From: a virus | Direction: 5' to 3' (one strand) | IMG/VR virus record: IMGVR_UViG_3300047557_004020 | Coordinates: 1-44,083 of that record | DNA length: 44,083 bases | Shown here: piece by piece, positions 34-30,628 of the stretch | How positions within the stretch are numbered: position 1 is the first letter of the stretch | How the letters are laid out: every line of letters begins with the position of its first letter | Position numbers and translations under genes: made by a program | Notes under the pieces: model-generated | What the model was told of the DNA's origin: nothing | What the model saw: the letters and a program-made list of their open reading frames with translations, nothing else | Databases searched by the model: none

Positions 34-40
34 GACTCTA

Positions 41-133
41 CGTTCATCAGAGAAATCTGACGCAAGTAGGACGGCGGAACGGGACGTTCATTCGCTATTT
101 GCAAATAGCGAACGCAAACCGCCCGAAGGAACG
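41..133 (+). promoter_or_regulatory. glutamine-riboswitch-like leader (glnA / Downstream-peptide type)
   Basis: The leader has the landmarks I know from the glnA/Downstream-peptide RNAs, which bind glutamine and occur in cyanobacteria and cyanophages. P1 pairs CGTTC (41-45) with GAACG (129-133). P2 is TCAGA-GAAA-TCTGA (47-60), a perfect hairpin with a GNRA loop. Then come CGCAAGTAGG (61-70) and CCGAAGG (123-129), the two sides expected to form the loop-E element. P3 pairs GGACGG (69-74) with CCGCCC (119-124), with one mismatch. The P3 distal part is unusually large and contains a perfect 22-base palindrome (91-112). It sits between a promoter and a 42-codon ORF, as expected for this class. 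The identification rests on remembered consensus, not a covariance search. Confidence 0.72.
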
Positions 134-165
134 GGACTAACCATCTCATTCTGGAGGAAATCCTA

Positions 166-29961: not shown

Positions 29962-30147
29962 ATGAAAACTCTTACAGTTCAAGAATTGCAAGAAAAATTT
30001 GAATATTACCTTGATAGGGTTGAGACTGGTGAGTCCTTCCTTATCAAGAGTCAATATGGTGATGCTATGTTAATTCCTTATAATAATGGTGAGGAAGAAA
30101 TTGACGACCTGATACGAATACATACGGATCACGAAGAAGGTTGTTGA
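29962..30147 (+). CDS. Phd/YefM-like antitoxin homologue, no toxin beside it
   Basis: 61 aa beginning MKTLTVQELQEKFEYYLDRVETGESFLIKSQYGDAMLIPY, which is the N-terminal Phd/YefM DNA-binding fold almost by the book (V.EL......L..V..GE.FLI....G..M..IPY). The C-terminal half, which binds toxin in true antitoxins, is short and acidic (EEEIDDLIRIHTDHEEG). It could neutralise a host toxin, or act only as a small repressor of nearby palindromic promoters. The latter is attractive because inverted repeats frame the -10 both before and after it. Both are inference. Confidence 0.78.
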   Translation: MKTLTVQELQEKFEYYLDRVETGESFLIKSQYGDAMLIPYNNGEEEIDDLIRIHTDHEEGC

Positions 30148-30180
30148 CAAAGAGTTCCAAATCCTCTATAATTGATTTGG
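30144..30180 (+). promoter_or_regulatory. perfect sigma70 promoter TTGACA-17-TATAAT for the tRNA cluster
   Basis: TTGACA (30144-30149), 17 bp, TATAAT (30167-30172). CCAAATC (30157-30163) and GATTTGG (30174-30180) form a 7-bp inverted repeat around the -10. The tRNA begins 15 bases after the -10. Confidence 0.92.
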
Positions 30181-30186
30181 TTTTAC

Positions 30187-30278
30187 GGGGGCATAGTTCA
30201 ACGGTTAGAACAGCAAGCTTATACCTTGTATTAGCGCCAGATTAGCGCGAGGTCCTGGTTCGAATCCAGGTGTCCCTA
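30187..30278 (+). tRNA. tRNA with anticodon UAU (Ile?) and expanded variable arm
   Basis: Acceptor GGGGGCA (30187-30193) pairs with TGTCCCT (30271-30277), A 30278 being the discriminator. The D stem is GTTC/GAAC. The anticodon stem GCAAG/CTTGT has loop CTTATAC, giving anticodon TAT (30220-30222). The T arm is CCTGG-TTCGAAT-CCAGG. The variable region (30230-30253) is 24 bases and consists of ATTAGCGCCAG followed by its near copy ATTAGCGCGAG, so it looks like an 11-bp tandem duplication. UAU would read AUA, a codon the AT-rich late genes use often. A long variable arm is not usual for isoleucine, so amino-acid identity is uncertain. CCA is not encoded. Confidence 0.8.
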
Positions 30279-30280
30279 TC

Positions 30281-30426
30281 TGCTTATCCATTTTGTAGTG
30301 GGTTTTAGAGGGTAAGCAACAGTAAACCTACTTGAAAAAAGGAGAGTGAAAAACCCCAGCTGCAAGTCGGTGTGAAACAGACCTATGACTTGTATGCGCT
30401 TCTGTTTCACTGTATGGATCTCTCCT
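30281..30426 (+). ncRNA. putative structured RNA with two pseudoknots between tRNAs
   Basis: 5' part: TGCTTATCC (30281-30289) pairs with GGGTAAGCA (30310-30318), and loop bases AGTGGGTTT (30297-30305) pair with AAACCTACT (30324-30332), an H-type pseudoknot. 3' part: AGGAGAG (30340-30346) pairs with CTCTCCT (30420-30426). Inside it, CAAGTC (30363-30368)/GACTTG (30387-30392) crosses the perfect 10-bp stem GTGAAACAGA (30372-30381)/TCTGTTTCAC (30401-30410), a second pseudoknot. No ORF of note, no tRNA T-loop. It should be cotranscribed with the flanking tRNAs. Family not identified; manA and wcaG RNAs of cyanophages are candidates to test. Confidence 0.62.
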
Positions 30427-30429
30427 ACT

Positions 30430-30503: not shown

Positions 30504-30537
30504 TTGACTATAAACACTTTTTGTGTTATTATAGTCA
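30504..30537 (+). promoter_or_regulatory. promoter TTGACT-17-TATTAT within a large inverted repeat
   Basis: TTGACT (30504-30509), 17 bp, TATTAT (30527-30532). TGACTATAA (30505-30513) and TTATAGTCA (30529-30537) are perfect 9-bp arms, with inner ACAC/GTGT around TTTTT. It could act as operator, or as a processing hairpin between two tRNAs. Confidence 0.65.
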
Positions 30538-30544
30538 TATACAA

Positions 30545-30628
30545 GGGGCGGTGGTGGAATTGGTAGACACCCCAGACTTAAAATCTGTTGAGCGTATGCT
30601 CGTGCGGGTTCAAGTCCCGCTCGCCCTA
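30545..30628 (+). tRNA. tRNA-Leu (UAA)
   Basis: Class II tRNA. Acceptor GGGGCGG (30545-30551) pairs with TCGCCCT (30621-30627), discriminator A. The D loop has GGAATTGGTAG, the anticodon loop CTTAAAA (30577-30583) gives anticodon TAA (30579-30581), the variable arm is GAGCGTATGCTC, and the T arm is GCGGG-TTCAAGT-CCCGC. Reads UUA and UUG, which suits the AT-rich phage genes. Confidence 0.95.

Follow-up and report, generated by a model that had tools for sequence, protein, structure and literature searches.

A double-pseudoknot RNA in the tRNA arrays of T4-like cyanophages

Introduction

Structured RNAs are found in the tRNA arrays of phages, and several of them, rnaC and rnaD of T4 as well as GOLLD and ROOL, still have no known function. 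The T4 pair (the species 1 and 2 stable RNAs, 139 and 119 nt) are small non-coding RNAs that lie inside the tRNA cluster and are spaced like tRNA genes. They are late RNAs of unknown function (PMC9697503). GOLLD and ROOL are structured RNAs of phages and prophages, often located near tRNA islands and likewise of unknown function; GOLLD combines a universally conserved region with a less conserved one, and its members often exceed 800 nt (PMC12286853). Among the structured RNAs of T4-like cyanophages, manA (RF01745) is found in putative 5' UTRs of metabolic genes; wcaG (RF01761) seems to control genes for exopolysaccharide or high-light genes (PMC2864571). The theta ribozymes, which are minimal HDV-like ribozymes, are pseudoknotted RNAs directly 3' of phage tRNAs (PMC10879173).

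The RNA described here occupies positions 30281-30426, on the plus strand, of the window, by which is meant the whole 44,083-nt stretch analysed (IMG/VR record IMGVR_UViG_3300047557_004020, positions 1-44,083). By the baseplate hub/lysozyme protein the nearest isolate is Synechococcus phage S-SRM01 (Kyanoviridae, Serangoon Reservoir), whose homologue is 63% identical, and the window is therefore assigned to an uncultured T4-like cyanophage. An earlier note, made from this sequence alone, had proposed that a phage tRNA cluster here contains an RNA with two pseudoknots. In size and in its spacing among tRNA genes the RNA resembles rnaC and rnaD, but it has a fold of its own: models R1 (run unfiltered) and R2, which represent the window family only, matched neither T4 RNA, and a search of T4 positions 69500-73500 with both models gave nothing convincing, the best scores falling outside rnaC and rnaD. 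It shares with GOLLD and ROOL a setting near tRNAs, but is 150 nt long and has no Rfam match. Unlike manA and wcaG, which the earlier note had named as candidates, it is flanked by tRNAs in nearly all copies and does not lie upstream of metabolic, exopolysaccharide or photosynthesis genes.

No family in Rfam 15, RF01745 and RF01761 included, reached its gathering threshold over 30279-30429. Permissive Rfam scans of the window and of two relatives (L189 and L065) returned scores at chance level only. IMES-5 (RF02995) was followed as a lead after it aligned over the full ~150 nt of L189, but the score of 13.3 bits is insignificant against a gathering score of 96.1; none of 46 records gave a match above cut-off, and controls scored at random. 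No description of the RNA was found in the open-access literature in PMC; literature outside PMC may hold one. The RNA is a new family in a known kind of place, the phage tRNA array.

The locus

The features of the locus are collected in Table 1. No open reading frame of at least 60 codons overlaps 30279-30429 on either strand. Directly upstream of tRNA-Ile, at 29962-30147, lies a gene for a 61-aa Phd-like antitoxin (phrog_375), an arrangement seen in many relatives; no toxin gene was noticed adjoining it. The tRNA-Ile(TAT) itself is of an 88-92 nt form with a long variable arm (CCGCCAGATTAGCGG type), which is also present in L002, L009, L017, L125 and many other relatives. Others have an ordinary tRNA-Ile(TAT) of 72-76 nt, and L016 has the long and the ordinary versions in tandem. 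At the left end of the window (39-137) there is a glutamine riboswitch aptamer (RF01739, 37.9 bits).

Table 1. Coordinates, in the window, of the RNA, its helices and loops, and the flanking elements.
Feature	Position	Strand	Evidence or remarks
Promoter-like TTGACA-N17-TATAAT (sigma70-type consensus), upstream of tRNA-Ile	30144..30172	+	12/12 consensus match, 17-nt spacing; predicted, sequence match only
tRNA-Ile, anticodon TAT; 2 nt before S1	30187..30278	+	ARAGORN; Rfam RF00005, 59.5 bits
Domain 1, H-type pseudoknot	30281..30332	+	Every cell paired; two-sided changes in S1 and S2; model R1, 94 bits
S1 of domain 1	30281-30289/30310-30318	+	9 bp including one U.G
S2 of domain 1	30297-30305/30324-30332	+	9 bp including one G.U
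L1 of domain 1	30290-30296	+	AUUUUGU
Segment between S2 5' and S1 3'	30306-30309	+	4 nt
L3 of domain 1	30319-30323	+	
Inter-domain linker	30333..30339	+	Contains UGAAAA, identical across 18 aligned sequences
Domain 2 (type A), closed by P0 (30340-30346/30420-30426)	30340..30426	+	P0 of 7 bp, 100% paired; two-sided changes in 4 of 7 pairs
P2 of domain 2 (30361-30371 with 30381-30383 and 30387-30394; UAU bulge 30384-30386)	30361..30394	+	Two-sided changes in 6 of 11 pairs
P3 of domain 2, crossing P2 (30374-30380/30402-30408; preceded by 2-nt loop 30372-30373)	30374..30408	+	7 bp; two-sided changes in 3 of 7 pairs; 99% of cells paired
tRNA-Met (CAT), 3 nt past P0	30430..30503	+	ARAGORN
tRNA-Leu (TAA), last of this tRNA array	30545..30628	+	ARAGORN and Rfam

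Fold and covariation

All five stems named in the earlier note are present in the window sequence: S1, S2, P0 and, within domain 2, a crossing pair drawn as 30363-30368/30387-30392 with 30372-30381/30401-30410, the second of which has 10 bp and no mismatch. Judged from this single sequence, the complementarity is moderate evidence for a structured RNA. Of 4,000 first-order Markov sequences matched to it in length, one contained an H-type pseudoknot of 9+9 bp, but such a pseudoknot occurs at two other places in the 44-kb window, and the nested, pseudoknot-free fold has a z score of -1.8, that is, 1.8 standard deviations below shuffled sequences.

The comparison of homologues is more informative. 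In a MAFFT alignment of 14 sequences the structure as originally drawn had 98.1% of its cells paired and nine pairs with two-sided changes. The pairing proposed for domain 1 and the closing stem stood, and both pseudoknots were upheld, but the second had to be redrawn. Positions 30372-30373 pair inconsistently, the second being broken in 5 of the 14 sequences; the conserved P3 helix is GAAACAG/CUGUUUC, and 30369-30371 pair with 30381-30383 (GGU/ACC). The second pseudoknot is thus better drawn as an 11-bp P2 with a UAU bulge, the loop of which pairs downstream over 7 bp. With this revision, 99.7% of cells are paired in the same alignment and 12 of 41 pairs have two-sided changes. Under a tree-aware null that kept the number of changes in each column, 11 such pairs were observed among the 14 sequences, compared to a mean of 1.8 and a maximum of 7 in 2,000 simulations.

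A model-fitted alignment (A4), which adds the divergent L189 and the type B copies described below and on which the pair counts are based, has 98.9% of cells paired and two-sided changes in 15 of 43 pairs, distributed over all five helices; when the partners were slid by 1-3 columns, only 0 to 3 two-sided pairs appeared. The MAFFT alignment (A1) served as an unfitted check, and a further MAFFT alignment (A5) was dropped, having misplaced L189 in S1. The changes in S1 include C-G to U-A in L022 and an alternation of U-A and C-G at 30287-30312. S2 is invariant until L189, in which its second pair changes from G-C to A-U, and with this single double change S2 has the thinnest covariation of all the helices. 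Covariation extends to all five helices, and this comparative evidence is decisive: 30281-30426 is confirmed as encoding a conserved structured RNA rather than chance complementarity.

The strand and nature of the structured molecule can also be read from the alignment. About 44 of the paired cells hold G.U, a pair that becomes A.C when the opposite strand is read, and the structured molecule is therefore the plus strand; the crossing of the helices argues against a DNA cruciform. Single-base insertions and deletions among the copies argue against a conserved reading frame. Between loci of the tRNA-Ile site, the median pairwise identity is 96% in domain 1 and 89% in domain 2, compared to 58% in the tRNA-Ile beside them and 54% in both the upstream and the downstream flank. 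The Phd-like protein of the window is 43-46% identical to its counterparts in L002 and L003. L1 is invariant in all 18 aligned sequences. The invariance of the RNA as a whole is in part ascertainment, since exact strings taken from it served to find most of the homologues. Scans that required domain 2 only still returned domain 1 intact, and the one divergent copy, L189, was retrieved through the neighbouring protein and not through the RNA.

Distribution and modularity

Pattern scans of IMG/VR, together with one search by way of the neighbouring Phd-like protein, found the element in 25 contigs, the window and 24 others, among which L003/L004, L011/L021 and L072/L073 are near duplicates. Domain 2 is of the window-like type A in 18 of the 25 (in L014 it is cut by the contig end), and of a shorter type B in four (L065, L068, L072 and L073). 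Three near-identical contigs (L066, L070 and L074) have domain 1 alone, abutting tRNA-Leu. As read from the alignment, type B keeps P0 through changes from G-C to A-U and has a simple hairpin in place of P2 and P3. In L065 (11034-11150) and the other type B copies the closing stem is AGAAAAG/CTTTTCT and the hairpin is of GTGAATT/AATTCAC type, with no pseudoknot. The family is thus modular, with domain 1 joined to type A, joined to type B, or alone. The earlier proposal was framed so that a lack of covariation, or absence from related phages, would count against it; covariation is seen, and related phages carry the element, in each located case within a tRNA array and on the strand of its tRNAs.

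When whole records were searched, each contig gave a single full-scoring copy. Weak second matches in L072 and L068 (L119 and L120) lie inside an apparent helicase gene, and L067, L069 and L071 are unrelated, sharing an 18-mer only. Loose pattern scans found no intermediate forms. A blastn search of phage isolates gave short chance matches only; one, beside a tRNA-Arg of Streptomyces phage Moab, covers 24 nt with an E value of 2-6 and was taken as chance. In 386 cyanobacterial genomes model R1 made 13 weak matches, eight of which were read and lacked the full motif, and the number of matches in the scan of genome contigs was within chance expectation by our own estimate.

Position in the array and boundaries of the cassette

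The insertion sites are after tRNA-Ile, before tRNA-Gly and near a Leu-like tRNA. At the Ile site S1 begins 0-2 nt past the tRNA. At the Gly site it begins 36 nt past the upstream tRNA, and the gap consists exactly of TTGACA-N17-TATRAT plus 7 nt, which places S1 at the predicted transcription start (+1). In eight copies the RNA starts at, or close to, a predicted promoter start. Variants occur: L023 has TTGGCA, and L018, at another site, has a -10 element in the corresponding position with no -35 to match it. Where a tRNA directly follows, 3-5 nt separate it from the end of P0. Downstream of the RNA in L003, L015 and L019 there is an HNH gene instead of a tRNA.

Related arrays mostly lack the RNA, and Ile-Met gaps of 0-3 nt are common. 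In S-PM2, 2 nt separate the counterpart tRNA-Ile and tRNA-Met. S-SRM01 reads tRNA-Ile-TT-ACATACA-HNH, compared to tRNA-Ile-RNA-ACATACA-HNH in L003, and L004 and L012 share a promoter and tRNA-Gly, with the RNA between them in L012 only. The comparison of filled with empty sites, together with the single copy per contig, shows that the inserted unit is the folded unit.

Proposed function and alternatives

It is moderately probable that the element is the gene of a small stable RNA of ~150 nt that acts in trans by binding protein, and that T4-like cyanophages carry this gene in their tRNA arrays as a cassette, the RNA being excised by tRNA maturation. The RNA would be co-transcribed with the flanking tRNAs and then freed by their maturation. 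Its 5' end would be formed where tRNA-Ile is cut at its 3' end or, in other phages, where transcription initiates at the abutting promoter; either event would leave the 5' end within a few nucleotides of S1. The 3' end would be made by RNase P cutting at the next tRNA, just past P0. Release by tRNA-processing enzymes, which the earlier note had raised, is plausible and fits the spacing; the tRNA mimic that it also proposed found no support, no tRNA-like domain having been found.

The product would be a stable two-domain RNA. Domain 1 would serve as its constant core, a rigid H-type pseudoknot. Its U-rich L1 lies alongside the AAA strand of S2 in parallel orientation, and U.A-U triples may form where S2 is UUU/AAA, as in other H-type pseudoknots. 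Domain 2 would be an exchangeable or dispensable pseudoknotted module. The RNA would act during infection, most likely by binding a host or phage protein as a decoy or scaffold. It is possible, as a tentative extension, that the family represents a new class of phage RNA effector, with a constant pseudoknot core and an exchangeable domain, carried cassette-like in tRNA arrays, cut out by the host's tRNA maturation enzymes and directed in trans at a host target, for example an RNase, a tRNA-cleaving defence or a translation factor.

The position beside tRNAs also permits a role in cis, which ranks next after trans action and is rather unlikely. The pseudoknot would protect or tune the tRNA precursor, as an exonuclease block, an antitermination element or a processing signal, and no free product would be needed. 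That the RNA is always directly upstream of, or between, co-oriented tRNAs is in accord with this, as are its being transcribed first in the promoter-driven copies and the abutment of domain 1 alone on tRNA-Leu in L066. Close counterparts of these arrays do without it, however, as in L004 compared to L012, in S-PM2 and in the many relatives with short Ile-Met gaps; three copies are followed by an HNH gene rather than a tRNA, and a conserved second pseudoknot domain is not obviously required for such a role.

The element could also be a mobile or selfish cassette that has recently spread horizontally between phage tRNA arrays, perhaps by way of the frequent HNH genes or of recombination in arrays, and whose fold serves its own spread; its patchy occurrence and its high identity within diverged flanks are compatible with this. 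The several insertion sites with exact presence or absence, and the HNH genes beside several copies, accord with such a cassette. We consider a selfish cassette improbable: compensatory changes in all helices show selection on the RNA fold, the element has no ORF, there is one full-scoring copy per contig, and no terminal or target-site repeats were noticed on reading the junctions.

A riboswitch or other metabolite-sensing leader, suggested by the compact pseudoknots and conserved loops, is very improbable, given that tRNAs lie downstream in almost every copy, with no constant downstream gene, no regulated ORF, and neither a terminator nor a ribosome-binding-site platform seen on reading the sequence. 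Least credible is a self-cleaving ribozyme trimming tRNA 3' ends in the manner of the theta ribozymes, to which the start 0-2 nt past tRNA-Ile and the HDV P1/P2-like crossing order of S1 and S2 bear a likeness, for those ribozymes need a P3, the 4 nt between S2 5' and S1 3' leave no room for P3/L3, Rfam gives no HDV match, and the eight copies with S1 at a predicted promoter start have no upstream RNA to cleave and no tRNA to trim.

The family is compact, with covariation in both pseudoknots, modular domains, natural presence or absence at the same promoter and tRNA, and cassette ends that fall where the folded unit ends. These properties make function testable with short in vitro transcripts, by pull-down and structure determination, and a covariance model built from the family can be used for annotating the tRNA arrays of cyanophages.

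Other elements of the arrays

Two kinds of repeat were observed around the tRNA and HNH genes. An inverted repeat, ACATACA...TATAAATA...TGTATGT, in which TATAAATA resembles a T4-type late promoter, precedes the HNH gene in L003, L015 and L019, where it comes just after the RNA, and in L125; the ACATACA/TGTATGT repeat is altered in L019. The gaps between tRNAs, such as 30504-30544 of the window and many others, often hold a promoter-like TTGACA-N17-TATRAT that starts right after the upstream tRNA, and 24 of 44 distinct inter-tRNA gaps of 25-70 nt score at least 9/12 on the promoter consensus. The two ends of these promoter-like gaps form an inverted repeat (TTGACAATC...GATTGTC).
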